The translations under genes and the position numbers were made by a program. Of a DNA stretch of 64,000 nt, positions 37,201-64,000 are shown one piece after another. The stretch spans positions 1 through 64,000 of the forward strand of contig JAAEQF010000591.1 of assembly GCA_024231695.1 (NCBI GenBank), given 5' to 3'. Positions within the stretch are counted from its first letter, which is position 1, and every line of letters starts with the position of its first letter. The notes under the pieces were generated by a model. It saw nothing but the letters and a program-made list of their open reading frames with translations. It had not been told where the DNA came from and ran no database searches. Source of the DNA: FCB group bacterium. Its GTDB lineage: Bacteria > Zixibacteria > MSB-5A5 > GN15 > JAAZOE01.

Positions 37201-38115
37201 TTAACTCGCGCCAACCACGCCGTAGATTCCGCGCTTGTCGGTACAACCGTAAGACGACCGAAAGGTAGCCTTGAACTTCGAATTTTCCGTATCGAAGTCG
37301 TCGTCTATCTTAAACTCGGGCTTACGACGGCTGTAGTGTTTCATCCCGTTCGGACAGTCGGTGATAATCCACCAAGAATCAACGTCCGAAGTGAAATGGC
37401 TTCCGAACACGCCTTCGGGGAACATCCCCGAATCCTTCGTCCAGTTCGGGTCGTTATCCGAAGTAGTAGGACGGAGCTTGGCGTGCAGCAGTCGGTGAGC
37501 GTTCGGCAGGCCGCTGTAATGGACAATCAGCTTCTTCGCGTTGACCGGAATCTGCAAACCACGGTCATCCTTGAACAGGCCAATATCCGTGAAAGCCTGC
37601 TCAATCGCGGCTTCCGAAAGATCGGAAGCAGTAGCGGCTTCGTTAGACCACGTTCCACCCGCCTGGTTGGGATGATCGGTGGCGCACAGTTCCTTGCCGT
37701 CACCGTAGGAGTAAGTGCTGGTGAACGACCTGTCGAGAACCAGGGAACCCAGAGTTTCCTCAGTGTTCCGCATGGAATGACCAAGAGCGGTAGCCTTGTT
37801 GATGGCCTTGCCCGGTCCTACCCAATCCTCGATATTCTCACGAGTTACAATAAACCCAAGACCGTAGGTGACATGGGTGTATCGGTCCACGAACGCCTGA
37901 GTAGCATCGTCGTAAGTGATAGCCGTTCCTTCGGGCTTTTCAATAGCCTGCCCGAAACCCGACAGTCCCTGGTCTTCCTCGTAGTTCTTGGTGGAGTTGT
38001 AGGTTTTGAAGAAATTGGGATATTCCAAGGGGTATTCCTTGTAGGACATCCCGTAAGCACTGTTCACGCCCGGCCACATAAACTTGGCGAAGGCGGCAGT
38101 AGTCATGACAGCCAT
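37201..38115 (-). CDS. major capsid protein (Mu gpT-like HK97-fold family)
   Basis: MAVMTTAAFAKFMWPGVNSAYGMSYKEYPLEYPNFF...SGFGQAIEKPEGTAITYDD. Confidence 0.8.
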   Translation of the reverse strand: MAVMTTAAFAKFMWPGVNSAYGMSYKEYPLEYPNFFKTYNSTKNYEEDQGLSGFGQAIEKPEGTAITYDDATQAFVDRYTHVTYGLGFIVTRENIEDWVGPGKAINKATALGHSMRNTEETLGSLVLDRSFTSTYSYGDGKELCATDHPNQAGGTWSNEAATASDLSEAAIEQAFTDIGLFKDDRGLQIPVNAKKLIVHYSGLPNAHRLLHAKLRPTTSDNDPNWTKDSGMFPEGVFGSHFTSDVDSWWIITDCPNGMKHYSRRKPEFKIDDDFDTENSKFKATFRSSYGCTDKRGIYGVVGAS

Positions 38116-42490: not shown

Positions 42491-42723
42491 TCGTTCTCCT
42501 CAAAATCTAACGTTTTCTTGGCAAACCGCACCTTCTCTTCAAGTGCGTCTATTTCCGACTTCAGCGCAACCGCCCTACATTGCGTCAAGTGGGGGTTCTC
42601 CAGGTCCAGGTAAAACAGCCCCCGTGCTTCCCCCTTCAGGTATCGGAGGTGCTGGCAAATCTGCGCCCTGTACCATCTCCCCACCGGGTGGTTCCACCAT
42701 CCCGCGAACTCCTTCTTCGTCAT
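42487..42723 (-). CDS. hypothetical protein (78 aa) overlapping portal 3' end by 149 nt
   Basis: MTKKEFAGWWNHPVGRWYRAQICQHLRYLKGEARGLFYLDLENP... Confidence 0.5.
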   Translation of the reverse strand: MTKKEFAGWWNHPVGRWYRAQICQHLRYLKGEARGLFYLDLENPHLTQCRAVALKSEIDALEEKVRFAKKTLDFEENE

Positions 42724-44731
42724 TTGACACTTCCTTTTGGTACGCCGGTAGCATCTCTACCGCTTCGTCCACCTTATCGATGTATTCGTCAACTTTCCCT
42801 GCACCCTTGCCTTCCGTGCCGCCCTTGTCGGCATCAGCGTAAGACTTCGCAGTAGCAGCATAGTTTTTAACAGCATTGGACACAATTTCTATCAAACGGT
42901 CTTCAAGTTCCTTCCCTTTTAGCATCGCATCGGCAATATTCTTGTCCAAATTCTGCTGCAAACGCTTTTCCTCAATAACAAGCCGCTTTTCTTCAATTTC
43001 TAGACGCTTCATTTCTATCTCTGTTTTCGGGTCTTGCGGGGGTTGAAACTGGCCTATCAGCTTGTCAATGTCCGAAACTCGTAACGCTTCTAAATACCGC
43101 CGGTAAATTTCTTTTTCCGGTAGGCCGCTACCGCGTAATTCCATCAGTGCTTGGGCCTTAGTTAGCTTCTGAACGTCAGTAATGTCCGCTTCGTCGGAAA
43201 TCGGTACGATATCGTGGTCGGCAGCAGAAAATTCTCTCTGACAAATTATCTGCGGGTTCGTTTCTTCCGGTGCGCCAAGCTCCGGGTCGTCCAAAATCCG
43301 GAGATAATCTTCGTCCAGCATGTACAAAGAGTTCAGTCGGCGCAGTTTTTTTAGTTCAGATTTAATCGACTTGTGTATGCGCTTATAAACAGCGGAAAAA
43401 ACCTTTAGCCCCTGCTCAATTAGGGCCATTGTGGTGGTCGCGGGAACGTCCCGACCGGGATTTTGCCCCGCGAGAACATCGCTCATGGACGCCAACTCCT
43501 TACTGGAGTCTATCATTAGCCCCAAGAGTTGGAATAAAACCGTTGACGGCTCTCTTGTCGGCATTGGGACGATACTGTCGGCTAATTTCTGCCCCCGGAA
43601 CTTTACCCGCTTCCATTCGTTCATCCGGAAATACAGGCTACCGGACCTGCCGAATTTCACGTTGTCCCCGATGAACCCACCACCCCGCGTGTACATGGTC
43701 CCAGACTCTATCAGTTGGTTCAGGGTGCTGTTTATGGCCCTTGTGATAGGGGACAGTAGGCTCCCGAACCCCATGCCGTACAGCGGAATACCAGACCCTT
43801 CGTCGGGGCGGTCCAAAGACGGCATGAACCAGTAGTGAGTGAAATGGTCTATCGGGGGAATACGGTAAATTTCGCCCTTATCGTTCGTTAGAACCGAGTC
43901 GATATCAAACCGCTCAATAATCTGGACAACTTTCTCGCTATCCTTATGTACAGTAATAATATACGGTTCTTCGTACCCGTCCCCGTCCAAATCCCACCAG
44001 CGGTGCTGTTCAAGGTACTTACGGGGCCGGTCGTCGTCGTTGTTGTTGTGTTTGTCGTCCGTGTCATCACTCAGATATTCGTGCTTCAGCCAAACCCCCG
44101 AGCGAATTCTCTCTTCAATTTCGTTAGGGCGGTAGGACAAAACGTGCGTGATTCTGTTGGCGTCTTCCAGTTTGGTAGTCCAGTAATTAACAACCAAATC
44201 TTCGGCCAATACCAGTGGGGATTTGTTCTTATCGTCCAGCGGGCAGCGGTAGGTCTTTTTGAAAATCGACCCGGTTAGGCCAAGGATATGCAACCCCTTG
44301 TCCATGTCTTCTTCCCAGCCGTCCATTTCTTCGGTCAACTGGTAGTTCATTACCGTAGAAACCCGGCTCCCCCGCTTGGATTTCTTCCCGTCTGGGTCGT
44401 TGCCGATAATCGCGCACTTGGCTACTTCCCTACCCTTGATAATGGCAGGGTAAGCCCGCGCATGAAACTGGATGATAGCCGTGGCAATGGAAGGGAACTT
44501 AATGTTGGAAACAATTTCCCCACCTTCGCAAGTCTTGCTCTCGTTTAACTGCCGGGCAAGCTCGTTTACTTCCTTGTTGGTTTCGTGCCAACCGGCTTCT
44601 TCCCGGCTTTTCCAATCAATATTAAAATCTTCGCAAACCCGCCGGCCAATATCGTCCCGCACATCTTCTTTCAATGCGTCGGCGATGTTCTTCTCTTTAA
44701 TTAGGTCGCGGAGTTTTTTTATAGAATCCAT
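42575..44731 (-). CDS. portal protein
   Basis: 718 aa; ...SNIKFPSIATAIIQFHARAYPAII...; next to terminase. Confidence 0.75.
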   Translation of the reverse strand: MDSIKKLRDLIKEKNIADALKEDVRDDIGRRVCEDFNIDWKSREEAGWHETNKEVNELARQLNESKTCEGGEIVSNIKFPSIATAIIQFHARAYPAIIKGREVAKCAIIGNDPDGKKSKRGSRVSTVMNYQLTEEMDGWEEDMDKGLHILGLTGSIFKKTYRCPLDDKNKSPLVLAEDLVVNYWTTKLEDANRITHVLSYRPNEIEERIRSGVWLKHEYLSDDTDDKHNNNDDDRPRKYLEQHRWWDLDGDGYEEPYIITVHKDSEKVVQIIERFDIDSVLTNDKGEIYRIPPIDHFTHYWFMPSLDRPDEGSGIPLYGMGFGSLLSPITRAINSTLNQLIESGTMYTRGGGFIGDNVKFGRSGSLYFRMNEWKRVKFRGQKLADSIVPMPTREPSTVLFQLLGLMIDSSKELASMSDVLAGQNPGRDVPATTTMALIEQGLKVFSAVYKRIHKSIKSELKKLRRLNSLYMLDEDYLRILDDPELGAPEETNPQIICQREFSAADHDIVPISDEADITDVQKLTKAQALMELRGSGLPEKEIYRRYLEALRVSDIDKLIGQFQPPQDPKTEIEMKRLEIEEKRLVIEEKRLQQNLDKNIADAMLKGKELEDRLIEIVSNAVKNYAATAKSYADADKGGTEGKGAGKVDEYIDKVDEAVEMLPAYQKEVSNDEEGVRGMVEPPGGEMVQGADLPAPPIPEGGSTGAVLPGPGEPPLDAM

Positions 44732-44739
44732 TTATGTTC

Positions 44740-45132
44740 CTACTGCCAAGAAAAACAGCAACTTGCCGCAAAACGTTGCCGTAGAGAAGCGAAATCCTGT
44801 TGCATTTCTATTTCAGGCGTTCTGCGCCAGTATAGTTTTTTTGCCTTTCTTCGTTTCATTTCCGCTACCATTTTTTCTAAGTTCCGGTATAAATAGAAAA
44901 TGTGGCATGAAGGATAGTGTTGTTTTCGATTTCTGGTTGAGAACGTGAAATGATTATACGCTACATCCGGTTCCTTTATCGAAGCGGAAACAGCCCCTAC
45001 TGCCGCTTGGTATCCGGTGTTGAAAACAAAACTATCGTCGTAAACGCGGGCGGGGTAAATAACTTCTTCGACCGCACCTTCCAAAAGGTCTTGGCATTCT
45101 TTTAACGCCGCTCTGATTTTATTCATTACCAT
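44740..45132 (-). CDS. hypothetical protein (130 aa)
   Basis: between portal and terminase. Confidence 0.5.
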   Translation of the reverse strand: MVMNKIRAALKECQDLLEGAVEEVIYPARVYDDSFVFNTGYQAAVGAVSASIKEPDVAYNHFTFSTRNRKQHYPSCHIFYLYRNLEKMVAEMKRRKAKKLYWRRTPEIEMQQDFASLRQRFAASCCFSWQ

Positions 45133-46640
45133 CCAGTAATCGGGTCTACGTTCGTCGCCCGAACAGGTTGTTCGTTATAGTCGTCTGCTTCTTCGTATTC
45201 GGTATCCAAAAGTAACAGCCGGTACAGGTTTTCACAGAAATCGTCGTCCACTTTGCTCGGTTTCCCTAATTTGTCGTACATCCATTTTTCAATGTGTTCG
45301 ATAGTTTTCCGCATGTCATGGAAAAACCATAACGAAGGTTCGTTATTTAGCCCCTTCAAGTGGTTGTTTATCTCGATTATCCCGCTGGTCTTATCCTTGC
45401 ACGCTGTCTCCAAAACGTGTCCATGCCGGTTCAGTACCCGGTCTATTTTGTCGAATGTCGTGTTGTCGTTGTTCTTGTCACCCTTTGCCAGTGGATCGCA
45501 TATAAAACGATTAGCCCGCAGAGCGTACCGAGAAATAAGACGAATAACATGCTCCGCAATGCTTGTACCGTCGCCATGCTCCCAGATTTCAAAGCACGCA
45601 ACCCTTTCGTTCTTAGAGTTCGTAGCGACGGCCAATACCGCTTGCTCTTTGCGGGGGTGTATGTCAAACGCGAAGTCTACCAGCCAATCGGACGGGATTG
45701 GGTACCGGTCTTTTATATGTATGTGCCGGTCGAAATCAGAACAAACCAAACCTTCTAAATAAGCCGGTTTCCCGTCTACACGAGCCTTGATTTCAGCCGG
45801 GGTAAGTTTGGATTTAAAATCGTTGACATTATCTTCTGTAATCCCAAAACCGACATTGACGTACATATCACCGTCAACTGCGAAAATCCTTCTGTCTGGC
45901 CGTCCATCTTCATCTAATTTCTTAATAATATCAGTGTGTATCCAGGGTTGCTCTAACAAAGTGGCAGCAATGAACTCCCGGCCACCCCTGTCGATTAAAC
46001 CACGCGAGTTGGCAACATAAACGTCACGCTTCGGCGGTTCGTCAAACGCAATCAAATCCCCATGCCACCCTTCGTGAAGCATGGATTCCTGCTTGTTACT
46101 CATCAACTCAAGAGTGGAGCCGCTTTCTTCGTCAGTAAAAAACGCTTCGACGCCCAGACTATTCTTTTTTACCGCCAACTTCCGCGATTGGGGCCACCAT
46201 TCCTTGAACGCCGGTACCACAACCGTCTTTATCTCCTTCTCCCAATCCTGTCCTACCAACCGAACCTTGCGCGGCTTGTTGTGGGGAAAAAGATAGCTTA
46301 AATCAGTCCCGTCCCACAAATACTTCGCTGTCATCGTGGAAATGCACAACCAAATAAGAGTGGTTGTTTTCCCTATTCGGTTCCCACCCGTATAAGCAAA
46401 CGTCTTTAGTTGCGGTTTCAGCCATGCTTGCAACAGCCGCTCCTGCAACGGGTTGAAACCAGGATTAGGGGGCTTGGTAACATAGTAAATCGGGTTGGCG
46501 TCCCGATGAGTCTGGACAACAGCAGCAGCCTTCGCTCTCGCAGCGTTCTCGCGCTCTAACTCAGCTATTATCTGGGCTTCGGTTAGCCCGAGTGTCGGGT
46601 CAGTCTCTATCAGCCCCCCTATGTTACGCTTCCTACTCAC
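45126..46640 (-). CDS. terL: terminase large subunit
   Basis: FAYTGGNRIGKTTTLIWL Walker A; LIAFDEPPKRDVY Walker B; FAFDIHPRKEQAVLAVA nuclease motif; GTG start. Confidence 0.85.
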   Translation of the reverse strand: MSRKRNIGGLIETDPTLGLTEAQIIAELERENAARAKAAAVVQTHRDANPIYYVTKPPNPGFNPLQERLLQAWLKPQLKTFAYTGGNRIGKTTTLIWLCISTMTAKYLWDGTDLSYLFPHNKPRKVRLVGQDWEKEIKTVVVPAFKEWWPQSRKLAVKKNSLGVEAFFTDEESGSTLELMSNKQESMLHEGWHGDLIAFDEPPKRDVYVANSRGLIDRGGREFIAATLLEQPWIHTDIIKKLDEDGRPDRRIFAVDGDMYVNVGFGITEDNVNDFKSKLTPAEIKARVDGKPAYLEGLVCSDFDRHIHIKDRYPIPSDWLVDFAFDIHPRKEQAVLAVATNSKNERVACFEIWEHGDGTSIAEHVIRLISRYALRANRFICDPLAKGDKNNDNTTFDKIDRVLNRHGHVLETACKDKTSGIIEINNHLKGLNNEPSLWFFHDMRKTIEHIEKWMYDKLGKPSKVDDDFCENLYRLLLLDTEYEEADDYNEQPVRATNVDPITGW

Positions 46641-52268: not shown

Positions 52269-52288
52269 CACAACCCATAACCGATGCA

Positions 52289-52320
52289 ACGGGGCCGGGA
52301 ATCATCCGGCCCCGTTTCTT
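52289..52320 (+). terminator. terminator ACGGGGCCGG-GAATCAT-CCGGCCCCGT-TTCTTT between convergent operons
   Basis: 10-bp perfect stem with T-rich tail. Confidence 0.75.
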
Positions 52321-53159
52321 TATGCGTACCGCTGGCTCTCCGAATGCCAACGGTCGAAAAACGATGCAACAGCCTGCGGGTTGTCGCCCTTTAGACTCCC
52401 GACCTCCAAAAGGTTAACGTATGGTTCTTTTCTCGCTATAACTACGAGATAGTCTGTGTCGATGAACCTATTTTGATCCACAGTGGTAAAGTTATTCTTC
52501 CACAACATAGCCACAAGAGTTTTAAAGCTAAAACGAAAGCAATGCGTATCCGCTGGATTTGTCGAGAAATAATCCTGAAGTGGCTTCTTGAAAGGTACCA
52601 AGATTCGACTGCCAGTTGCGACAACGATATGCCCGCCCGGCTTCAGCAGTTCCCACGCCTTTGACAGCATCGCGTTGCAGTCTTGGCAGTTTTCAAGGGT
52701 CCACAAAACCGATGCAACATCGAACCGCTGCGAAGTCGCCACGCTTTCAATGGTCCCCTGAAAGCAATCGAATCCGCACCCGATAATTTGCTGGACGTTA
52801 TTCCGCGACGGCTCTATCCCGGTGCATTTCGCGCCCTGCCAGCTCGCTTCCAGCATGAAATTACCTTCGCCTGCACCGATGTCAATAAGTTTTTTGTCGT
52901 TCAAACCGATGCAATTTTCGACAAACTCAGCAACATACAAATGCCGCGCCTTAACTGCCGGTATCGCGCTCGTGTAGCCTTCACCATAGATATCGTCGGA
53001 CCAACTGCCGGCAATCTCGTCTGCGGTTCTGCGGTATTGAACATAAACAAAACCACACCGAGAGCAAATATGAATGGCCTGCCCCCCTGTGTATTCGCGG
53101 CAGCGGGGTACTTCAATCGGGTCGTCTGCCCCGCACAAATCGCACGAAAAGAATTTCAT
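52320..53159 (-). CDS. class I SAM methyltransferase with N-terminal zinc motif (sugar C-methyltransferase-like)
   Basis: CDLCG..CRCGFV; LIDIGAGEGNFM...GIEPSRNN...LKPGGHIVVAT. Confidence 0.7.
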   Translation of the reverse strand: MKFFSCDLCGADDPIEVPRCREYTGGQAIHICSRCGFVYVQYRRTADEIAGSWSDDIYGEGYTSAIPAVKARHLYVAEFVENCIGLNDKKLIDIGAGEGNFMLEASWQGAKCTGIEPSRNNVQQIIGCGFDCFQGTIESVATSQRFDVASVLWTLENCQDCNAMLSKAWELLKPGGHIVVATGSRILVPFKKPLQDYFSTNPADTHCFRFSFKTLVAMLWKNNFTTVDQNRFIDTDYLVVIARKEPYVNLLEVGSLKGDNPQAVASFFDRWHSESQRYA

Positions 53160-53173
53160 TATCTGTATCTCCT

Positions 53174-53245
53174 TTATTTTGCGACTAGAACCCCAACAAT
53201 AAAACACAACACCCAGAAAATTGCCCAAAGCTCAAAGTTTTTCAT
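53174..53245 (-). CDS. 23-aa single-TM peptide MKNFELWAIFWVLCFIVGVLVAK
   Basis: AAAGGAGAAACAA SD-ATG; read from sequence. Confidence 0.45.
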   Translation of the reverse strand: MKNFELWAIFWVLCFIVGVLVAK

Positions 53246-53267
53246 TTGTTTCTCCTTTCCGATGGTT

Positions 53268-54359
53268 TTACCCTTTCGGTAGCGGGTTTCGTAGCACCCA
53301 ATCGCGCTTTACGAACAGGTCTTTGTTCCGATGGGATTCTATCATTTGGCGCACATCTGGCATACCAAGATATTCGCAGACTTCTTCAAAATCAGTTTCA
53401 GGAAACTCGCTGTCGTTCCGCTCAATTAAGCCGAGCGCCTTACGCCGGCCCATGTACCCGCCCTGTATCATCCGCGCAGCATCGCGCAGAGCCTTACCGA
53501 ATCCGTACTTGACATATTGCATGTGGTAATACAGCGGGTCCATTTTGTCGTCAATCGAGTCCCATCCGTTCCATGTTCCGTCTACTGTCGTAGCTTCCCG
53601 AAAATCCCAATGGTCTTTGGCAAATTTGTAATTTTCGCACATATGCCACTTTTCAAACCAGGCATAGTAGTATGCTTTAATACCCCGACCGAGCATCCCG
53701 TCCACCGGGTATAGGTACGGGTTCAAATCGTTCTTCTGGACAGTATCGTCTGACCAATCGCGGGGGTCATCGCCTAATTGTATCTGGTAAACTTCTTCGG
53801 CGTCCCGCGTTTTGGAACTGTCCTTGTGCAGAATTTCGCCACCGTACTCGGACTCCCCGTGTTCCGCGTAAAACACCAATTTTATATTATTCTGCACCGC
53901 GACTTGCGCCGGGAAGGAATTAACCTGGGCGTCCCAAGCCGCCTTTGGGTTCCCCCGCTCAATGAAAAACTTCCGCGCAAGATACCGATGTACCTTCTGG
54001 TTTGGCCTGCTTAAAACATAATCGAAACCGAGATTTAAGAATGTCTCCCGATTTGCGTTACCCACAGCCGTTGGTAGCATCGGAGACACACAGGCTAAGA
54101 GTGGGTTCATACCGTACTTAGTTTTTAATTTATAAGCGATAGTGGACGAATCTTTTCCCCCACTCCACGGGACTACGCAATCATACTCGCCGTTGTTAGA
54201 CCGATGCAAATCGCATAGAGTTATCAGTTCGCGGGCGCGTGCGGCCCAATCGATTTTTTCCTTACTCTCTTGGTATCTACAAGCGTTGCAGACCCCTTCG
54301 GGATCGAATGTAATTCTGGGGCGAGTATTGGGCATTAGGCATTTTTTACAGTATTTCAT
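53268..54359 (-). CDS. N-acetyl sugar amidotransferase (WbpG/PseA family)
   Basis: MKYCKKCLMPNTRPRITFDPEGVCNACRYQ...VVPWSGGKDSSTIAYKLK; SD AGGAGGG. Confidence 0.85.
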   Translation of the reverse strand: MKYCKKCLMPNTRPRITFDPEGVCNACRYQESKEKIDWAARARELITLCDLHRSNNGEYDCVVPWSGGKDSSTIAYKLKTKYGMNPLLACVSPMLPTAVGNANRETFLNLGFDYVLSRPNQKVHRYLARKFFIERGNPKAAWDAQVNSFPAQVAVQNNIKLVFYAEHGESEYGGEILHKDSSKTRDAEEVYQIQLGDDPRDWSDDTVQKNDLNPYLYPVDGMLGRGIKAYYYAWFEKWHMCENYKFAKDHWDFREATTVDGTWNGWDSIDDKMDPLYYHMQYVKYGFGKALRDAARMIQGGYMGRRKALGLIERNDSEFPETDFEEVCEYLGMPDVRQMIESHRNKDLFVKRDWVLRNPLPKG

Positions 54360-54489
54360 CGGTTTCCCTCCTGAGTATTTCCAACCGCCGCTTTTCGGTA
54401 GCCCATTGCTCCCACGCGCTAATGACAAAAACAAAAAGAGCGCAACCGAGCATTATAAACAACCCGTAAGATAAAATAAAATCTTTCAT
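54346..54489 (-). CDS. 47-aa TM peptide MKDFILSYGLFIMLGCALFVFVISAWEQWATEKRRLEILRRETDEIL
   Basis: overlaps neighbouring ORF ends; read from sequence. Confidence 0.5.
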   Translation of the reverse strand: MKDFILSYGLFIMLGCALFVFVISAWEQWATEKRRLEILRRETDEIL

Positions 54490-54514
54490 TTTCCAAACTC
54501 CTCCCGAAACATTT
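54483..54514. repeat. 32-bp direct repeat 1, copy A
   Basis: CTTTCATTTTCCAAACTCCTCCCGAAACATTT; 31/32 with 55295-55326. Confidence 0.9.
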
Positions 54515-55301
54515 GGGTTTGTTTTTCTTTCGATTCCCTTTTCTTCTTCCCGAACCCCCGGTAGTACGCTTCCATGTACTTTTCAAAACTTCCGTGGGGG
54601 CAATCAACCATTTGCTTTCTGTCGTACCACTTTTTGACTGCTCTTTCGAATGCCCTGAATTTCCCCGGCCAGCGTTCCTTGTGAATGTTAAGTTTTGCTT
54701 GGTTTGGTTGGAAAATCATGGGACAGGTTACGCATCCTATTCTTTCGAACCCTTCATCGTACAAAGAGCAATACGGGAGTTTGTGTTTTTCTATAAAATC
54801 CCAAATATGCCATTCTCTCCAATGGAAAATTGGTTTTATCGTTACAACACCCATACGGCGCGTTATTTCTACCTTCTGAGTTCGTGCCCTCTTGCCAGAT
54901 TCCTCCGCTCTTACGCCTGTAATGTGAACAGGGTAGAACCTCTTCAAGTCTATCCCAACACGTTCTTTAATCTCTTCGCAACACCATCGCCGACCCGGTA
55001 ACGGCGGACACTTGCGAGAAACAAGGCTATAAAAATTCTCTTTAGGGCGCAACAAAACCGTTTCCGGATGGTTGTGTTTTATAAAAGAAACAACTTCCGG
55101 GGGATCTATACCGGTATTCGAATACCCAGCGAAGTATTTTACTTCCGCCATTTTGCACAACTCACGGGCAACAGATGAATCTTTCCCACCGGAATCTGCA
55201 AGAAAATACCCCCGTACTGGTTCATATTTTTGTAGAAATTCTGTTGCTTTTTTTACCAGCCTATCGGTTGGCACAGTAGAGGCCCGGCAAGCGCCTTTCA
55301 T
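54486..55301 (-). CDS. PAPS reductase-like adenine nucleotide alpha-hydrolase enzyme
   Basis: ADSGGKDSSVARELC...GYSNTGIDPPEVV...RRWCCEEIKE...GCVTCPM. Confidence 0.75.
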   Translation of the reverse strand: MKGACRASTVPTDRLVKKATEFLQKYEPVRGYFLADSGGKDSSVARELCKMAEVKYFAGYSNTGIDPPEVVSFIKHNHPETVLLRPKENFYSLVSRKCPPLPGRRWCCEEIKERVGIDLKRFYPVHITGVRAEESGKRARTQKVEITRRMGVVTIKPIFHWREWHIWDFIEKHKLPYCSLYDEGFERIGCVTCPMIFQPNQAKLNIHKERWPGKFRAFERAVKKWYDRKQMVDCPHGSFEKYMEAYYRGFGKKKRESKEKQTQMFREEFGK

Positions 55302-55326
55302 TTTCCAAACTTCTCCCGAAACATTT
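55295..55326. repeat. 32-bp direct repeat 1, copy B
   Basis: CTTTCATTTTCCAAACTTCTCCCGAAACATTT. Confidence 0.9.
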
Positions 55327-56971
55327 TGACGGAAAGTTTGCGAAACATTTCCTTGGACGTTTCGTTGTCCAAATATGGCGATAGCCCCATGAGTTCGCCG
55401 ATTGAACAGTTGAAACCCATTTTTTTCCGGTTATCCAGAATTTTATCCGGAACGATTCCCCGCATAGCGTCACGCAACACCGCTTTGTTGTACCCGTTGC
55501 GAATTAAACGCGGGGTCGGGATAGTATAGCAGAATTCCATCAGTTCCCGGTCCAGAAACGGACTCCGGTTTTCGATGCCAAACGACATTGCGTTTAGGTC
55601 GTCTTCGTGGAGTATCATCGGAACCGACTCGCAGAACATTTCGTTTTGCATCCGGTTTCGAAGCAAATCGTCGGTGTAGTGAGTTTCGGTGAACCCGTCT
55701 TCGTAAATATGGTCCCGAAAGCCGGGGTTTTGAATAAACAGCGACGGATTACGCAGGTATGCGTTACGCACATTAGGTTTGACATGCTCGTCCCACGCCA
55801 TATATTCTTTAGCGCCCACTCCATGAGTTGCCAAATGCATGAGATAGTGGTCATAGTACCCGCTAAATAGTTCATCCGCTCCGGTTCCGCTCAGTACGAC
55901 CTTATACCCGAAATTGTTAATAAAACCCATGAGTTGATGGTGGATATAGTACGATATTGTGGCAACAGGCGCATCATGCTGCACGACAAGTTCCCCGAGT
56001 CTCTGCTCAAAATCGTTTGTGTCCAGGTAGAAAAAGTTGTGTCTGATGCCCAGTTCCCTGACTGCGTACTCAACAAGTGGCTGCTCATTGTATCGCTCGT
56101 CCTGTGGCAAAATCGTGAACCCGTGAACATCGTAGTCAAACAATCGTTTAGCAATCGCAACTATAGTATTACTATCCACACCGCCGCTCATGCAAAACGC
56201 AAGCGGAACGTCTGACCTTAGCCGCCGCTCGACGGCTTTAACAATCCGGGTACGAGCGAGATTGACGAGTTCCGGATAGGTCGAAACCGTGTCGATTTTA
56301 TCTATAGTCGGACGCCAATACGGATTTGGCTTGAAATTATACCAAGCGTTGCCCCCGTCGATTTTCGCATAATGCGCCGCTGGAATTTCCTTCGCGCCGT
56401 GCCAGAAGGTTTCCTTGTCCTTGTAAATTGATTTGTACCCGCTCTTGAGAAATGTCTTTACCTTCTTTTCGTTTGGAAATATGTCGCAACCCATTTTCCG
56501 GAGCGTTTTAATCTCAGACGCAAAATACACCCCGTGTCGGCACTGGTGATAGTACAGGGGCTTTTCCCCGAATCGGTCCCTACAGAGCGTCAGAGCCCCC
56601 GTATTTTCGTCGTAGAGCGCAAACGCGCCCATGAACTCGCATCTGTCGAGATGTGCCAGGGAATCGTCCATTAGGCGCATGAAAACTTCTGTATCGGACT
56701 CCGTGATGAGACTGTACCCCTTGCCCAGTTCCCGGTAGTTATATAACTCCCCGTTGAATACAAAATGTTTGCCTTTGTAGTGCATTGGCTGGTCGGCGCG
56801 GGGATCTAAATCAACAATGGCTAAACGGGTGTGAAACAGGTAGCAATGCCGACCGTTAACTGAATGCCGATAGATACCGCTACCGTCCGGTCCACGATGT
56901 TGCATGGACTCTAAGATAGCCGAAGCGTTATCCAGTGTTTTAGTGCCTATGTATCCTGCTATTCCGCACAT
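55298..56971 (-). CDS. asnB: asparagine synthetase (glutamine-hydrolysing) family
   Basis: MCGIAGYIG...MQHRGPDGSG...FNGELYNYRE...SGGVDSNTIVAIA...SGTGADELFSGY. Confidence 0.9.
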   Translation of the reverse strand: MCGIAGYIGTKTLDNASAILESMQHRGPDGSGIYRHSVNGRHCYLFHTRLAIVDLDPRADQPMHYKGKHFVFNGELYNYRELGKGYSLITESDTEVFMRLMDDSLAHLDRCEFMGAFALYDENTGALTLCRDRFGEKPLYYHQCRHGVYFASEIKTLRKMGCDIFPNEKKVKTFLKSGYKSIYKDKETFWHGAKEIPAAHYAKIDGGNAWYNFKPNPYWRPTIDKIDTVSTYPELVNLARTRIVKAVERRLRSDVPLAFCMSGGVDSNTIVAIAKRLFDYDVHGFTILPQDERYNEQPLVEYAVRELGIRHNFFYLDTNDFEQRLGELVVQHDAPVATISYYIHHQLMGFINNFGYKVVLSGTGADELFSGYYDHYLMHLATHGVGAKEYMAWDEHVKPNVRNAYLRNPSLFIQNPGFRDHIYEDGFTETHYTDDLLRNRMQNEMFCESVPMILHEDDLNAMSFGIENRSPFLDRELMEFCYTIPTPRLIRNGYNKAVLRDAMRGIVPDKILDNRKKMGFNCSIGELMGLSPYLDNETSKEMFRKLSVKMFREKFGK

Positions 56972-57177
56972 TTTTTATCCCTCAACAACGCAATCGGGAC
57001 ATCAGCCATAGAATTGCCCGTAGAAAAGGCAATTCTTGCTTCCACTGGATTAGCGCCATCTTTGATGGCTTGGGCGATACGGTAATCTATATGCATATTA
57101 CAAGAAACAACTCCAAGCGAAAAAATAGTCGCAAACGTCATCGCCCACACACATAGTTTGAAAAATTTATTGCTCAT
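56959..57177 (-). CDS. small TM protein
   Basis: MSNKFFKLCVWAMTFATIFSLGVVSC... Confidence 0.5.
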   Translation of the reverse strand: MSNKFFKLCVWAMTFATIFSLGVVSCNMHIDYRIAQAIKDGANPVEARIAFSTGNSMADVPIALLRDKKCAE

Positions 57178-57193
57178 CTCGTCCATCCCCCCC

Positions 57194-57373
57194 TTATTTC
57201 GCGCATCTGTTTATCCTATCTGTCGGCCAAATCTCCATCCAATACCAACATCCCGCATTGGACCCCCAGCGAAACGCAGCGTATGATTGCCCCGCCCACG
57301 GCTCTGCCATGTATCGGTAACAGGTATCCCGTGCGGGGCAACTATTGTTTTCGCACATCGAAATGTCGGGCAT
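57194..57373 (-). CDS. 59-aa Cys-rich protein (MPDISMCENNSCPARDTCYRYMAEP...)
   Basis: read from sequence; GGAAGGAG SD. Confidence 0.5.
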   Translation of the reverse strand: MPDISMCENNSCPARDTCYRYMAEPWAGQSYAAFRWGSNAGCWYWMEIWPTDRINRCAK

Positions 57374-57374
57374 T

Positions 57375-57402
57375 ATTCTACATCTCCTTCCGTTATCGTT
57401 GC
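57375..57402. repeat. 28-bp direct repeat 2, copy A
   Basis: ATTCTACATCTCCTTCCGTTATCGTTGC; 27/28 with 57781-57808. Confidence 0.9.
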
Positions 57403-57782
57403 GTGATAATGTCGTGGGAAGGTAGCCCCTCCCCCCGGAGTTCTGTCAACTTTTTTTCCACCAACCTTGCTTCCCGAAATGCCCACTCACTTTCTTCTCC
57501 GGTTCTTGTTTGGTAAATATAGTCCATAGTCCCTTGAACTTCGCACATTTCGTTTACCCATTTAGAACGAATTTCTCCCCCCCGGATAAAAATATATAGA
57601 ATCACAACCGCACATAGGGCGGCAGGGGCAAGAAAAAGTTTGATGCCCAATAGCAAGGCTATTACCGAACAAGGCACCCCAACGGCAAGAGATGCAAACG
57701 TTACGGTACGCGCAAGTTTAAATTCGTTCTCTCTTCGCTCTATCCACCCCTTGCATAAATTGTAATGATTTTCGTAATTCAT
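57393..57782 (-). CDS. two-TM hypothetical protein (MNYENHYNLCKGWIERRENEFKLARTV...)
   Basis: ATG overlaps NeuB stop (ATGA). Confidence 0.55.
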   Translation of the reverse strand: MNYENHYNLCKGWIERRENEFKLARTVTFASLAVGVPCSVIALLLGIKLFLAPAALCAVVILYIFIRGGEIRSKWVNEMCEVQGTMDYIYQTRTGEESEWAFREARLVEKKLTELRGEGLPSHDIITQR

Positions 57783-58762
57783 TCTACATCCCCTTCCGTT
57801 ATCGTTGCATTTTTCCGAATGGCCCATTTAGTCCTAACCCCGACAATCCTGTCTTCTTCGCCGGGTGGTAATCCATCGGCGGGCCGGGTCCATGTCAAAT
57901 CTGACATTTTAATCTCATGACCTTCAGGCAGGTTTCCCTTCGCACGAATAGATCGGTGCATGTGAAAGAGAACCGGTTCTTCGCACGGCATGATGCGCTT
58001 TTCGCCGTCCCCGAGCATTTTCTCCACCCGGCGAATTTGATGAACCATTTCAGCGAATTCGGACGGTTCAAGAGATACGGCAGCATCAACCCCCTTGCTG
58101 TTAATTGTGAAATGCTTTTCGATAATTCTTGCGCCAAGTGCCACGGCGGCAATCGGGGCCGTAATGCCTTCGGTGTGGTCGGAGTAGCCAACTTCCCCGT
58201 TCCCGACTGTGGCTTCACACCATTCCCTTATATCATGCAAAAGCGCATCTCCATCGGGAACAGGATAACCGGAAATACAATGCAAGAAGGCAAGATTTTC
58301 CCCGTCATAATCGCCCACCCATTCCCCCAATTCACTCTCAGTCTGCCCCCCCGTTGAAACAATCGTAGGAATTTTATACGAAAGTATCTTGTCAACAAAA
58401 TCCCCCCAACCGCAATCCCCGCTCGAAATCTTGAAAGCGTCCACAATCGGTGCGAGTTTTTCGGCTGATTCCAGGTCGAACGGGGTGCAAATAAACGCTA
58501 CGCCGCAAATATGTGCGTATTTTGCTAAATACTCCCAATCCCCATCGTCGAAACACCACCTTTTGAGTTTTTCGATCCGTTCCGGTCGAGAATCGTACAA
58601 TTCCGGTATGAACCGCTGGAACTTTACAGCATCAGCACCCGCTTGGGCAGCGGCGCATATCATCATCAGAGCAGTTAGGTATCCGCCTTCATGCGCGTTG
58701 CCAATCTCTGCGATAACCAATACCTTGTCATTAGTGTCGTGATTCCGAATTAACATTGGCAA
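57779..58762 (-). CDS. neuB: NeuB/SpsE-like N-acetylneuraminate (nonulosonate) synthase with C-terminal SAF domain
   Basis: VIAEIGNAHEGGYLTALMMICAAAQAGADAVKFQRF...KISSGD...STGGQTE...GYSDHTEGI...EKHFTI; SAF-like RSIRAKGNLPEGHEIKMSDLTWTRPADGLPP. Confidence 0.9.
   Translation of the reverse strand: MPMLIRNHDTNDKVLVIAEIGNAHEGGYLTALMMICAAAQAGADAVKFQRFIPELYDSRPERIEKLKRWCFDDGDWEYLAKYAHICGVAFICTPFDLESAEKLAPIVDAFKISSGDCGWGDFVDKILSYKIPTIVSTGGQTESELGEWVGDYDGENLAFLHCISGYPVPDGDALLHDIREWCEATVGNGEVGYSDHTEGITAPIAAVALGARIIEKHFTINSKGVDAAVSLEPSEFAEMVHQIRRVEKMLGDGEKRIMPCEEPVLFHMHRSIRAKGNLPEGHEIKMSDLTWTRPADGLPPGEEDRIVGVRTKWAIRKNATITEGDVE
57781..57808. repeat. 28-bp direct repeat 2, copy B
   Basis: ATTCTACATCCCCTTCCGTTATCGTTGC. 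Confidence 0.9.
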
Positions 58763-59492
58763 GCCTCCTTAGTATTCTGTTGTGTTTTCGCATTATTTCT
58801 AAATCGCGGTAATATTCCAGAGTTAGATGCACATCGCGGGGAACCAGACACAAAACATAGTTCAAAACCGCATATCCCGTAAAATCCGGCTCGTTGTGCA
58901 AATCCTTCCACGTTCCTTCCGAAATCGTGGTCCCGGTCAAATGTATTTCTACAATTTTGTCGAGCGGGAGAGCATCTATGTATTTCGTGAATACAACCCC
59001 CGCGTTGTGCGCGGTAATCATGGCGTGAGCGATATCGAAAACTAACCCCAACCGGTTCTCTTCGACTATTTCTGTGATAAAATCGGGTTCGCAGATATGC
59101 GTGTACGCCGGGAATGGAAAATAGCTCCCGTTTTCAACCGCAAGCGGAACGTCCGTGAGTTCACGCAAACGGGCCACCCTGTCTTTCACGATACTTTTAA
59201 TTATTTCGCGGTCCAGAACAGGGCTCTCCGCAATATGATAGTAACTCTCCTTTTTCACTCGCCGGCAAGCGGGTCCGAGATGGAACGAAAACAACTCACA
59301 CCCAGTCCAATCTATATTGCGAATCTGCCGCATGAACAGGTCGTTGACTATCCCGACATCAAAATGGAACACCCACGGGGGATTGAAACGGTGGATGTCC
59401 TTTAAGAACTTGACTTCAACAATATCAAAATCAAACGCATTTATGCTTACTTCGTTTACCAGATGGCTGATTGGCATAGTTATTTTATGCAT
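58731..59492 (-). CDS. TIM-barrel protein, DUF692 (MNIO)-like or sugar-isomerase-like
   Basis: FSFHLGPACRR...LAVENGSYFPF...LGLVFDIAHAMITAHNAG...YIDALPLDKIVEIHLTG. Confidence 0.5.
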   Translation of the reverse strand: MHKITMPISHLVNEVSINAFDFDIVEVKFLKDIHRFNPPWVFHFDVGIVNDLFMRQIRNIDWTGCELFSFHLGPACRRVKKESYYHIAESPVLDREIIKSIVKDRVARLRELTDVPLAVENGSYFPFPAYTHICEPDFITEIVEENRLGLVFDIAHAMITAHNAGVVFTKYIDALPLDKIVEIHLTGTTISEGTWKDLHNEPDFTGYAVLNYVLCLVPRDVHLTLEYYRDLEIMRKHNRILRRLANVNSESRH

Positions 59493-60322
59493 TATTTCAC
59501 TCCAATCCGCTTCAAGCGGAATAAATCCGTTTCGTGCGTGTTCACCCCGTGAATCGCAGTCGGGCAGCACACCACCCCGGCGCTTTTCAACAGAGAGATT
59601 GTTTCATCATCGAAATCGTCTTCTTTGCCTTCCGGGTAGGAAAAATGCTTCGGAACGATGCCGTGCTGGTGTAGCATCCAGAGCGGTCGGAATATCTCGC
59701 CTTCTTTTTCGCGCTTGTTGAGCATCGGTAAAATCGCATGGGTATGGGTGTGAGCGCCGATTGTGAATAGGGAAGTCCACGATAGTTGCACAACCTGTTC
59801 CCAGGTCATTTTGTCGGTGAGTTCCAGACCATCTATTTCACCGCGCAATACATCCGTGGTGGGAATGCACGGTGATTTCATCGCCCTGCGGTTAATTATT
59901 TCAGGGTCTTTATCTAAAACTTCATATGCATATTCGACATAATCAATATACGCCGATGTATTCTGGGCGATAAACTCCGTTGCAACATAAAACGTAGTGG
60001 GAATCCCGAATTTTTCCAGTACATCCACGGCGTAGTCGAAATTGTTCCGATACCCGTCATCGAAAGTCACCGCGAACGATTTATCCGGTAACGGCTCGTT
60101 GTGATTATGATGCCAAACAATTTCGTCCATTGAAACCGGATTCCCGGCGTTGTACAACGACTTAATGACAGATGTAAAATAGTCCAATTCCAGATGTTTT
60201 CTGTTCCGATTGCGGACGTTCCACTTTTGTTTTCGGATTACCCCGTGGAATAGGAAGATTGGGAAAGAATCGCACCCAAGAACGTCACCGTCGAGATAAC
60301 TAGTGTAGTCCATGTTTTTCAC
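59492..60322 (-). CDS. NodB-type polysaccharide deacetylase
   Basis: FAVTFDDGYRNNFDYAVDVLEKFGIPTTFYVATEF; THTHAILPML. Confidence 0.85.
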   Translation of the reverse strand: MKNMDYTSYLDGDVLGCDSFPIFLFHGVIRKQKWNVRNRNRKHLELDYFTSVIKSLYNAGNPVSMDEIVWHHNHNEPLPDKSFAVTFDDGYRNNFDYAVDVLEKFGIPTTFYVATEFIAQNTSAYIDYVEYAYEVLDKDPEIINRRAMKSPCIPTTDVLRGEIDGLELTDKMTWEQVVQLSWTSLFTIGAHTHTHAILPMLNKREKEGEIFRPLWMLHQHGIVPKHFSYPEGKEDDFDDETISLLKSAGVVCCPTAIHGVNTHETDLFRLKRIGVK

Positions 60323-61062
60323 CTAAACATTTTGAGTTGCTTGTTTTCCGCTTCAATCCGTTTCGCTGCAATTTCACAATATTTTTCTTCTATCTCTATG
60401 CCTATCCATTTGCGCCCCAAACGCTCGCAGGCGACGGCGGTTGTGCCGGAACCAAGGAACGGGTCAAGAACAACCTGCCCTACTGCCGTGGTCAATATCC
60501 TATGAGGCAGTTCTTGTGGGAACGGGGCCGGGTGGCTGTTCTTTGTGTCCGGGGAAAATCCCCAAACGTCACCGTCCTTCGAAGCGGAGCGGTTTACAAG
60601 TCGAAAACCTGGACCAGCGATAACCACGATCCACTCACATGATGGAGCGTAATGTGAGGGAGAGAAATTGATACAGCCTCCGCGATGCCATATAATTATT
60701 TGTCTCAACGGGTGCTTCCCTATAAGCGATAGAGGAGTCCATAAGATTTTATTTCTCAGCCTCGGCTTATGATTATAAAATATCGCTCCGTTGGCCCTTA
60801 ACGTTCCCCACATGCAGGAAATTATTTTCTTCTGCCATTTTTCATATTTATCCCACGGCATTTTGTCGTTGCACACGCCATAACCCTTCGAAATCGGCGG
60901 CGACTTCCAGATACTCCAATCCCCGAACCCGCCCCCCGTTGTATTGCCAAGATTGTAAGGCGGTGACGTAATAACCAAATCCACCGGCTGTAGTTGCGGC
61001 ATAATCTCCAAACAATCCCCGTGGTAAAGTTTGCCCAAATCTGTCTCAAAGTATGGTTTCAT
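60319..61062 (-). CDS. DNA methyltransferase (N4-C/N6-A type)
   Basis: LVITSPPYNLG; LDPFLGSGTTAVACERLGRKWIGIE. Confidence 0.9.
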   Translation of the reverse strand: MKPYFETDLGKLYHGDCLEIMPQLQPVDLVITSPPYNLGNTTGGGFGDWSIWKSPPISKGYGVCNDKMPWDKYEKWQKKIISCMWGTLRANGAIFYNHKPRLRNKILWTPLSLIGKHPLRQIIIWHRGGCINFSPSHYAPSCEWIVVIAGPGFRLVNRSASKDGDVWGFSPDTKNSHPAPFPQELPHRILTTAVGQVVLDPFLGSGTTAVACERLGRKWIGIEIEEKYCEIAAKRIEAENKQLKMFR

Positions 61063-61772
61063 AATTTACCCGTATATCTCTCAAATTTCTCCGCGCAGAT
61101 TGTAATCAACTGCGGGGGCATGGACGAGTAGTAGCGGCCTTCGCACATTTGCGGGGAACTTAGCGGCATTCTTGCAAAATATTTTGAAAATGCTTGACGG
61201 CGGGAGTACATAATCAACCTTTTTGCTTGGGATAAGCACACATCCACAACAGCCTTTCGCATCTCAAATAGTTTCATCTCCGAACCAATCGGCACCCTGT
61301 CCTGGTACAAAATATTCCCGGTATCCAGTTTCGGTGCTACGAAATGGCAAGTCACTTTCAGGGCGTCCCAATCGTCGTGATAAATCGACCACCACAACGC
61401 GTCCTTTCCCCTGTATTTCTGTGAGTCCCCGCCGTGAAAATTGACAAGGTTGTAGTTATGGCAAACGTCTGCCGGAATCTTCCGCGCACCGTACACGAAG
61501 ATAATGTTCGGTTTGCCTGCGTCGAAACTCCTTGTGAACTGCTCAAGTGTCGCGTATGGGATTTTTTCTGTCGGGATGTACTCTGATATGTCCCGGTCGA
61601 CAAAAGGCGCTTCCAGGGCGCTCTGACGGTCGTGGATAGGGTGAGAAGTGTCGAACTTCTGGGGTAGTTTTTCGGTCCCGAATATCACCCTGGAAATCGG
61701 GTGAAATTTATGCAGTTCTTGGCAGAATAATTGGTGGTGGGTCGTGTCTGTTGTCAGTACGGCTATTTTCAT
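61059..61772 (-). CDS. formyltransferase-like protein
   Basis: NLVNFHGGDSQKYRGKDALWWSIYHDD...KLDTGNILYQ. Confidence 0.75.
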   Translation of the reverse strand: MKIAVLTTDTTHHQLFCQELHKFHPISRVIFGTEKLPQKFDTSHPIHDRQSALEAPFVDRDISEYIPTEKIPYATLEQFTRSFDAGKPNIIFVYGARKIPADVCHNYNLVNFHGGDSQKYRGKDALWWSIYHDDWDALKVTCHFVAPKLDTGNILYQDRVPIGSEMKLFEMRKAVVDVCLSQAKRLIMYSRRQAFSKYFARMPLSSPQMCEGRYYSSMPPQLITICAEKFERYTGKL

Positions 61773-62032
61773 TTTTCCCCCCATTCAGGCAAATCGCAAT
61801 CGTCGGGGTTTTCGATAAATCCAACCACGAAAATTAAATTCTGCCCTGCGGCGTCCTTGGCCCGCATGGCAGCCATCAGAGCCGTCCCCCATTTTGCCAG
61901 ATGCGAAAATTGTTCGTCTTCTACCCATTTTTTTACCCACGGGATTTCTTTCAACTCTTCGACCGTTGAAAACTCAACATTTTCAGCCTTGAACCCTTCG
62001 AAAAAAGACGGGAAATACTGTTGGATGTTCAT
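61769..62032 (-). CDS. hypothetical protein (87 aa)
   Basis: ends LPEWGEK; coupled. Confidence 0.5.
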   Translation of the reverse strand: MNIQQYFPSFFEGFKAENVEFSTVEELKEIPWVKKWVEDEQFSHLAKWGTALMAAMRAKDAAGQNLIFVVGFIENPDDCDLPEWGEK

Positions 62033-62742
62033 TTTTCCCCCCCATGAAAATGTAAAACGTAGGATGCCCCCGTGTACTGCATACCCAATTTGCTGTAAAA
62101 ATCAACCGCGCCGATATTGGAAACCTGCGTGCTGGCTTGCACGATAGGTTTCTGGTTATTCCAACAACCGGTACACATAACAACGTACTCTATCATCGCC
62201 CGAGCAAACCCGCGCCGTTTAAAGGGCAGGATTGTAGTAATATGGTCGATTACGATTGTTTTATGCCGCGACTCGTAAATCAGCATCCCGGCTAAACACC
62301 CACTCCGCGACTTCGCCACGATAACGGACTTACCGTTTTTGTCGGTAAGCGAGTCCCAGATATTTCGCTTCTTGATTTTATACGCCATCTCGTTGGGAAT
62401 TTTTGGGTCTTCGTGGAACCTGTCATGGCTGAATTGCGCTGCCATCCTGTCCCAAGCCATCACCGAAAAAACACTGTTAGATTCCAACCTTTCGACCCAG
62501 CATCCCCACTCGCTACTCGGCGAAAAATTGTCATCGGAAGAAAATGTAACGGAGTTCGACATCGAATCAAACCCGAAATCCAGCAAACCCCGTACAGTCT
62601 CTATTTCCCCCACCCGCGCCCAGGCGAAGCACTTCCCGTGGCGCTTGCATTTCAGGAACGCGGGCGGTTCGCCTTCTCCGGTGAGTTGATAACAGGGATA
62701 GCCGAATATTTCCGACAGCCATTTGTCTGTTAGTGCGTTCAT
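62029..62742 (-). CDS. GNAT acetyltransferase (WecD-like)
   Basis: IDHITTILPFKRRGFARAMIEYVV...VSNIGAVDFYSKLGM. Confidence 0.7.
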   Translation of the reverse strand: MNALTDKWLSEIFGYPCYQLTGEGEPPAFLKCKRHGKCFAWARVGEIETVRGLLDFGFDSMSNSVTFSSDDNFSPSSEWGCWVERLESNSVFSVMAWDRMAAQFSHDRFHEDPKIPNEMAYKIKKRNIWDSLTDKNGKSVIVAKSRSGCLAGMLIYESRHKTIVIDHITTILPFKRRGFARAMIEYVVMCTGCWNNQKPIVQASTQVSNIGAVDFYSKLGMQYTGASYVLHFHGGEK

Positions 62743-63632
62743 TAGAATAACTCCGGTCTGAGTTCCTTTACCTTCATAATAGATAAAGTATTCAGTTTCT
62801 TGAAATCTATCGTCGGGTTCTTATGCTTCTTGACTATGTTCCACGTTTCTTCGTTCACCAAGTCATAAAACACCGTCCCAAGCAATCTCGGAATATATTT
62901 ACTGTTCCAACCTTCCTGTTCGTTCACAATCTTGGCGTAAACTTTATCAACCAAATGCTGCGTGACATATCCGTCACAAATTGCTGACTCGACCAAAGCC
63001 TTCATATTTTTAACTGTCGGCTCATTTCTCTTGTGCTTGTCCTTGAACTCGTTAGTACAGATTTTGGCCCAAACCACCCGTCGATATTTGTTAAGAAAAT
63101 CGTAATTCTTAATGACAATCCCTTCACCGGAACCCTTACCTTGTCCAATTAAGTATTCGTTGTTTTTTAATTCTATAAGAAGATTGTCATGGGTTGCGTT
63201 CCGCATAATGCAGAGCGGGGGGATAATATCCAGTTCATGGACAAAACACAGTTCGGAATAAACGTTGTACGGTAGATACACACCGTTCATATCATCAAAC
63301 ACATCAAACACATAAAACTTACGCCAAGCGTCTTCCCTGTACGTCTTTAGCGTATGGGGTACAAGCCATTCGCCATACAGCCGCAGCCCTTCATTATCAG
63401 CAAAAAAAGCCGCAAGTTCGGCAGACGATTTGGCCCACGCATAAAACCCGGCGTTGTCGGCGTCCAGGGATAAGTGCCGCTTGCGACTACCCGCTTGTAT
63501 TCCGTCAAGATTCCACCAAACAGAAGCGTTCGTTCCATCCAGTTTCGGGAAGACGTAGCATTCGCCTAATTCTATGCCCTGCACTTCGTCGTTCCCGAAT
63601 CGCTCCACATGCATGTAAGGTCTAAACGGCAT
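62742..63632 (-). CDS. RNA ligase
   Basis: YVFPKLDGTNASVWW (KxDG), GEGIVIKNYDF, RVVWAKI. Confidence 0.8.
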   Translation of the reverse strand: MPFRPYMHVERFGNDEVQGIELGECYVFPKLDGTNASVWWNLDGIQAGSRKRHLSLDADNAGFYAWAKSSAELAAFFADNEGLRLYGEWLVPHTLKTYREDAWRKFYVFDVFDDMNGVYLPYNVYSELCFVHELDIIPPLCIMRNATHDNLLIELKNNEYLIGQGKGSGEGIVIKNYDFLNKYRRVVWAKICTNEFKDKHKRNEPTVKNMKALVESAICDGYVTQHLVDKVYAKIVNEQEGWNSKYIPRLLGTVFYDLVNEETWNIVKKHKNPTIDFKKLNTLSIMKVKELRPELF

Positions 63633-63948: not shown

Positions 63949-63979
63949 CCTACCCCTTTCGTATAAGGTTTTTGGGCAC
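63949..63979. repeat. 31-bp direct repeat 4, copy B (core 63961-63979)
   Basis: see copy A. Confidence 0.85.
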
Positions 63980-64000
63980 ATCTTCCCGATACCAACGAAT

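Follow-up and report, generated by a model that had tools for sequence, protein, structure and literature searches.

Contig JAAEQF010000591.1, from the assembly of an FCB group bacterium, carries a minus-strand run of genes for a sialic-acid-type sugar, which raises the question of what a phage does with them and where the sugar would end up. Phages alter host O-antigen and glycosylate virions. We analyzed the first 64,000 nucleotides of the contig (the window) and the region past the window end (locus L006, contig 60000–72727). An earlier note on the window had read 52320–62742 as a phage-borne nonulosonate-type sugar island serving either remodeling of a host glycan or decoration of the virion.

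The contig and the genes of the island

At about 72.6 kb, the contig represents a complete circular phage genome: an exact 141-bp repeat is common to both contig ends, and phage replication and head genes are found on either side of the island. The source MAG is fragmented (1001 contigs, 7.9% contamination) and the operon is bacterial in origin according to the tree, as would be expected if bacterial DNA had been picked up by chance or joined in assembly and had no role for the phage. However, the circular end overlap is exact, all reading frames of the island are open, phage-type genes are located inside the operon and the cassette recurs at a fixed position in independent phages. We regard this explanation as very improbable. 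A chimeric join, which the earlier note had named as refuting its reading, was dropped because of the circular end overlap and the phage-type genes within the operon; together with the flanking phage genes these rule it out as far as sequence allows.

Pfam and TIGRFAM profile searches recovered all named genes on the minus strand of 52320–62742, and the reported linkage is visible as start-stop overlaps in the ORF coordinates. The island is larger than first noted, as the run extends to contig 67,053, with an RNA ligase followed by SDR, DegT and CTP_transf_3 genes past 62742:

52288..52316, no strand: 12-bp GC-rich hairpin directly after the last stop codon of the island (terminator scan and sequence)
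52320..53228, minus: SAM-dependent methyltransferase (PF13489, 63.5 bits)
53268..54434, minus: WbuX/PseA-type N-acetyl-sugar amidotransferase (TIGR03573, 299.7 bits, cut-off 203.2)
54486..55301, minus: PAPS-reductase-like protein (PF01507, 86 bits; phrog_424, 106.7 bits)
55298..56971, minus: AsnB-family glutamine amidotransferase (PF00733, 187.5 bits; TIGR01536, 351.5 bits, over cut-off)
57393..57827, minus: small ORF without family
57779..58762, minus: NeuB/PseI-type synthase with SAF-like tail (PF03102, 187 bits, over cut-off)
58731..59570, minus: MNIO/DUF692-like TIM-barrel protein (PF05114, 66.7 bits, over cut-off)
59492..60322, minus: NodB-type polysaccharide deacetylase (PF01522, 61.5 bits)
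60319..61062, minus: phage-type N4/N6 DNA methylase (PF01555, 118 bits; phrog_67, 213.7 bits)
61059..61784, minus: formyltransferase (PF00551, 25.4 bits, just under the 26.1 cut-off; NxH...D motif visible)
61769..62032, minus: 87-aa ORF without family
62029..62742, minus: GNAT acetyltransferase (PF00583, 27 bits)
62742..63632, minus: phage-type RNA ligase inserted in the operon (PF09414, 69.9 bits)
contig 63950–65020, minus: SDR dehydratase/epimerase, 3' end in the window at 63950..64000 (PF01370, 119.8 bits)
contig 65309–66385, minus: DegT-family, PseC/LegC-like aminotransferase (PF01041, 317.2 bits)
contig 66376–67053, minus: CTP_transf_3/SpsF-like cytidylyltransferase (PF02348, 94.2 bits)

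With PF03102 and TIGR03573 over cut-off, the synthase and the amidotransferase fall into nonulosonate or sugar families as the earlier note had called them, and the PP-loop SGGKDS of WbuX is intact in the alignment. Against TIGR03569 NeuB scored 229 bits, under the cut-off of 399.65. Its PEP-aldol catalytic core (Glu/Lys/Lys/His/Asp) is conserved in alignments, the catalytic residues being retained in all NeuBs aligned, and the proposed SAF-like tail was confirmed by a full-length alignment to NmNeuB in which the tail arginine is kept. In AsnB the N-terminal Cys2 and SGGVDS are visible. Identity to bacterial operon copies is at most 51% for AsnB, 35–40% for NodB, 34% for the formyltransferase (copy in L201) and 23–31% for GNAT; the formyltransferase matches ArnA, PseJ and LgrA weakly. 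The methyltransferase, which adjoins WbuX in bacterial and phage cassettes, shares 36–55% identity with its counterparts in both.

Past the window end, the aminotransferase reached 238.8 bits against PseC (TIGR03588) and the LegB profile gave 58.7 bits, both under cut-off. The cytidylyltransferase matches PF02348 and does not reach the PseF and KdsB cut-offs. Since it lies in the same minus-strand run just past the window end, the CMP-transferase reported as missing does exist. With this gene, the aminotransferase and the SDR all encoded by the phage, a necessary dependence on a host pathway is not supported, and L190, the bacterial operon examined from end to end, likewise lists no NeuC. A captured biosynthetic operon is a more fitting description of the island than a collection of modification genes. 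Two other gaps persisted at contig scale: PF02350 (NeuC-like UDP-sugar hydrolase/2-epimerase) and PF00977 (HisF-like) are absent from the contig, and no HisH-like ORF was seen in it (the profile search covered HisF). AsnB is present where HisF/HisH partners were not found.

The PAPS-reductase-like gene and the DNA methylase gene within the run had gone unmentioned before. One MNIO-like relative was found beside NeuB in a viral contig (L065). For the PAPS-reductase-like, MNIO-like and RNA ligase genes the bacterial WbuX loci gave no match, and a single bacterial locus contained the DNA methylase, so these four interleaved genes seem to be phage additions. The interleaving would suit an operon that serves another end product (a small molecule, a soluble CMP-sugar, or a modified nucleotide or DNA sugar), but the apparent addition of the genes by phages speaks against that explanation.

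Bacterial source operons and cassettes in other phages

A synteny search, as suggested by the earlier note, found the gene set in bacterial operons and a good part of it in other phage cassettes, and the match to bacterial operons supports, along with the gene families, the reading as a phage-borne nonulosonate-type sugar island. In bacteria the genes form a surface-polysaccharide operon of the order SpsF-DegT-SDR-GNAT-NeuB-FormylT-NodB-AsnB-MTase-WbuX plus HisH-HisF. The closest legionaminic/pseudaminic-type operons, those of Desulfobacterales (L201), Azospirillum cavernae (L190) and Betaproteobacteria (L184), contain the same ten genes as the phage in mostly the same order, with identities of 55% or less, and the phage WbuX nests among bacterial operon sequences in the tree. 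Compared with these operons, neither HisF nor NeuC was found in the phage, HisH and Gfo/Idh genes were not observed, and the four interleaved genes named above are inserted.

In phages from IMG/VR (L128, L129/L295, L130, L153/L382, L177 and G095), a HisF-WbuX-MTase-NeuB-SpsF-DegT-SDR cassette immediately precedes TerL-portal-MCP. The order before TerL-portal-scaffold-MCP is fixed and a GT42-like gene comes next. These cassettes share with our phage WbuX, MTase, NeuB, SpsF, DegT, SDR and sometimes GNAT, as well as the location upstream of TerL and the DUF115/GT42-like gene after MCP. They differ in that capsid and portal are unrelated, HisF is present, NeuB is short and without SAF tail, and AsnB, NodB and FormylT were not found. 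In the WbuX tree the starred branches force 2 changes, which requires that phages captured the cassette independently at least twice. A single origin of all phage cassettes is thereby ruled out for WbuX, whereas SDR is still compatible with it.

Among about 50,700 phage records the WbuX query found no match and the NeuB query matched only two viral records and one bacterial contig. A Moritella "phage" match turned out to be a bacterial capsule locus and was left out. Scanning viral contigs with a single NeuB sequence gave no relatives; alignment queries were needed to find them. The titles and abstracts of the literature searched describe no phage nonulosonate, NeuB or sialic operon.

A DUF115/GT42-like gene beside the capsid gene

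The late block downstream of the island, separated from it by six plus-strand genes and the hairpin, whose T-run is on the plus-strand side, includes:

34721..35698, minus: DUF115/GT42-superfamily-like protein, candidate sugar transferase, between capsid and tail genes
37201..38115, minus: major capsid protein (phrog_371)
42575..44731, minus: portal protein (phrog_1216)
45126..46640, minus: terminase large subunit-like protein (GNRIGKTT motif)

The portal protein is 38.8% identical to that of Alcaligenes phage vB_Af_QDWS535. The terminase-like protein is without PHROG match and weakly matches the TerL of L129 (24.8%, 8.7e-7).

In our phage and in the IMG/VR phages alike, the capsid gene is followed by a DUF115/GT42-like gene, and a homologue stands after MCP in all cassette phages (6/6 cassette records). 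Within the IMG/VR lineage sharing a capsid protein it was found in cassette carriers only, a link that may reflect one co-gain. The gene occurs in 16/50 NeuB-bearing viral records versus 0/50 control phage records (Fisher p 7e-6). As the family is common in phages without NeuB, among them relatives whose portal and capsid are homologous, the gene was rejected as a cassette hallmark in all phages.

The AF2 model of the protein has a core pLDDT of 87. In Foldseek searches the CMP-sialyltransferase CstII was the best match of the full-length model (3.9e-4) and among the best matches of the core (1.8e-3), where SteA and the archaeal pterin kinase Mj HPPK were comparable. The predicted fold resembles CstII (GT42) and DUF115/MptE-like proteins, with an identity of 13–16%. 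None of the Pfam GT families reached its cut-off, and neither PF06002 nor PF01973 reached the gathering score for the protein; PF01973 was matched by a single homologue (E 0.01), both were without match in host relatives, and the A5 profile had no meaningful match among PDB sequences.

Returning to another end product, for which the DUF115/GT42-like gene would be a general morphogenesis gene, its wide occurrence in phages without NeuB agrees with that role, but within the capsid-sharing lineage it tracks the cassette exactly. We consider this explanation distinctly improbable. A stronger competitor, though still unlikely in our estimate, assumes the same CMP-sugar with a host surface glycan as acceptor (LPS, capsule, flagellin), so that a changed receptor blocks superinfection or evades other phages. 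Phage glycan genes often alter host O-antigen, the bacterial source operons have flippase and GT genes as neighbors within polysaccharide loci, and the host MAG contains its own WbuX-HisH-HisF, NeuB and NeuC-like genes. On the other hand, no integrase was detected among the larger ORFs scanned with Pfam/PHROG, no flippase, Wzy or polysaccharide GT was recognized in the phage, and in other phages the cassette heads the structural block, with the linked transferase-like gene after the capsid gene. Between the two uses put forward in the earlier note, decoration gains from the DUF115/GT42-like gene in the head block, which in related phages is linked to the cassette; host remodeling is kept as the rival.

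Proposed pathway and meaning

Sugar biosynthesis by the phage operon is well supported at the level of gene content. Our preferred reading, which we hold slightly more probable than not, is that the phage produces a nonulosonate-type sugar, CMP-activated and amidinated/methylated, for attachment to its own virion; the virion as acceptor, the exact sugar, the substrate of each enzyme and the transferase activity are what we infer within this proposal. Against it count the NeuC and HisF genes not found and the HisH gene not seen, the NeuB, PseC and LegB scores under cut-off, the frequency of the DUF115/GT42-like family in phages without NeuB, the comparable SteA and Mj HPPK matches of its core, the possible single co-gain, and the six plus-strand genes plus hairpin between the island and the late block. 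SDR and DegT would make an amino-deoxy sugar precursor, which GNAT would acylate before NeuB condenses it with PEP. WbuX would convert the N-acetyl to an acetamidino group, AsnB possibly acting in place of HisH/HisF, and methyltransferase, NodB and formyltransferase would alter N-substituents. The SpsF-like enzyme would form the CMP-sugar. Its transfer to a virion protein would most likely fall to the DUF115/GT42-like protein, whose gene comes directly behind that of the capsid.

In Legionella-type acetimidoyl/N-methyl legionaminic acid a WbuX-type amidotransferase and a methyltransferase act on the nonulosonic acid. The phage encodes the same pair of enzyme types. Mycobacteriophage virions are reported to be glycosylated on capsid and a tail protein (Freeman et al. 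2023, as cited in PMC12619734), a phage-associated glycan similar to the one proposed here. In our case most of the CMP-sugar pathway would be phage-encoded, beyond a transferase alone.

More tentatively, at least two captures of near-complete operons upstream of terminase could have given rise to a virion-sialylation system that is largely self-sufficient and uses a phage transferase of the DUF115/GT42 type. The data suggest that certain phages cover their particles with sialic-acid-like sugars of their own making. If true, bacterial viruses would make their own sialic-acid-type coat, with near-complete pathways acquired in separate captures and placed similarly by the capsid genes. The very common, nameless DUF115/GT42-like phage family would gain a testable role, and such phages would be a source of enzymes for unusual ulosonic acids.

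Gene content of the phage island

The window was taken from a fragmented genome assembly and represents bases 1–64000 of contig C591. The contig comprises 72,727 bases, and an exact 141-bp repeat common to both ends shows that the genome is circular, with a length of about 72.6 kb. That this is a phage is clear from its genes for portal, capsid, Sak4 and a DnaD-like helicase loader; related portals occur in Alcaligenes phage vB_Af_QDWS535, Pelagibacter phages HTVC023P/027P and Roseobacter phages CRP-901/902. A 2103-aa protein (13101–19412) matches only PHROGs of unknown function; near it, a 754-aa protein (21916–24180) shows a weak match to virion RNA polymerase. Away from the head genes, a ClpP-related protein (8807–9766 of L006, the segment from contig base 60000; contig 68806–69765) has a CxxCH motif and what looks like a signal peptide.

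Profile searches recovered, each in its place, all genes that the earlier note had named in the minus-strand sugar operon (52320–62742), as well as two phage-type genes absent from that note, PAPS-reductase-like and DNA methylase. Beyond the GNAT the minus-strand run goes on with an RNA ligase; outside the window it takes in an SDR, a DegT/PseC-like aminotransferase and a CTP_transf_3 protein and stops at contig 67053. The claim that a CMP-transferase is missing thus does not hold, since the CTP_transf_3 protein sits in the same run; NeuC-like (PF02350) and HisF-like (PF00977) proteins are indeed absent from the contig. The whole island spans about 14.7 kb, one fifth of the phage genome. Motifs visible in the sequence, partly by direct reading (NeuB lysines, SGGKDS, SGGVDS, NxH...D of the formyltransferase, TFDDG of NodB), suggest active enzymes. 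The operon also contains an MNIO/DUF692-like TIM-barrel enzyme (58731–59570), possibly sugar isomerase-like or an oxidase of the RiPP type; viral contig L065 has a relative adjoining NeuB.

Bacterial counterparts and capture by phages

In a scan of the WbuX subfamily (PseA-type amidotransferases) covering one genome per prokaryote species, bacterial polysaccharide loci carried the same gene set as the phage island. The order in a Desulfobacterales operon (L201) is SpsF, Gfo/Idh, DegT, SDR, GNAT, NeuB, FormylT, NodB, AsnB, MTase, WbuX, HisH and HisF, followed by a flippase-like gene and then glycosyltransferases (Gfo/Idh, HisH, HisF, flippase and glycosyltransferases assigned by reading the sequence). 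Identity between phage and bacterial operons reaches 55% for WbuX, 54% for SDR and 51% for AsnB. Gene order is similar, but in the phage WbuX and MTase are swapped, NeuB lies later and phage genes are inserted; the window phage showed no gene for HisH, HisF or Gfo/Idh. An enzyme for the NeuC/PseG step is not among the listed genes of the Azospirillum cavernae operon (L190) either. Polysaccharide loci of the bacterial assembly G000 (contigs C384 and C665) hold a separate WbuX-HisH-HisF and NeuB, which differ from the phage copies.

When viral contigs were searched with alignments of NeuB and WbuX, five to six distinct phages emerged that carry HisF, WbuX, MTase, NeuB, SpsF, DegT and SDR as a cassette immediately before terminase large subunit (TerL), portal, scaffold and capsid. 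Neither capsid nor portal of these phages matched its counterpart in the window phage, and their NeuBs keep the catalytic core and end before the SAF domain. In the WbuX tree the cassette phages form one clade and the window phage falls among bacterial sequences, with well-supported branches that require at least two acquisitions; the SDR tree favours two, a single one being less likely. TerL of the cassette-related contig G095 (L549 3953–6931) is broken directly after the Walker A motif (GNRVGK-CVSRETLI) by what looks like an intein, and TerL of L128 is likewise split, in two ORFs.

Among about 50,700 phage records, neither WbuX nor the DUF115/GT42-like protein described below had a match, and the NeuB hits were two viral records and one bacterial contig listed as phage. 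No report of such a phage operon was found in the literature covered, which includes only a minority of subscription papers, and priority is not claimed.

A candidate transferase next to the capsid gene

34721–35698, minus strand: DUF115/GT42-like gene, candidate sugar transferase, between capsid and tail genes; homologue in all six cassette records

The homologue lies just 3' of the capsid gene in 6/6 cassette records. For the full-length model (pLDDT 68) the first six structural matches are all CstII, a CMP-sialic acid transferase. With a better core model (pLDDT 87) SteA, CstII and Methanocaldococcus HPPK (MptE-like) score alike (E ~0.002–0.01), and the predicted fold fits the DUF115/GT42 superfamily. 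At both ends the protein carries DnaJ-like zinc motifs (CxxC/CxxCxGxG), which the aligned homologues lack. A small transglutaminase-like protein (35709–36296, weak match) is encoded between it and the capsid gene.

A DUF115/GT42-like gene was present in 16 of 50 NeuB-bearing viral records versus none of 50 control phage records (Fisher p 7e-6), the controls having been picked by an unrelated SSB query with unmatched habitat and some NeuB records possibly being bacterial. In the lineage sharing the capsid protein of the 44-kb cassette phages, every gene-bearing phage has the cassette or a visible remainder of it (in G095 SDR, MTase and a GNAT-like ORF from contig start to TerL, NeuB absent), and none of the evaluable cassette-less relatives has the gene; the capsid tree is compatible with one joint gain. 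The family is abundant among viral contigs (at least 581 matches), and NeuB is absent from 31 of 32 other records with the gene, three of them 40–56 kb, which speaks against a strict link. Both patterns would fit if cassette phages supplied their own donor through the cassette and cassette-less phages took one from the host, e.g. CMP-Kdo or host CMP-NulO.

Proposed sugar product and acceptor

Since the cassette precedes the terminase and the transferase-like gene follows the capsid gene, gene arrangement argues for the virion as the probable sugar acceptor. In the window phage a plus-strand gene block and a hairpin separate the island from the late genes, so that the layout of this phage does not imply joint transcription of the two. 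The main rival to virion decoration is remodelling of the host surface. As to the product, the evidence best fits a pathway, encoded by the phage, to a nonulosonate-type sugar that is CMP-activated and carries N-acyl, acetamidino and methyl modifications.
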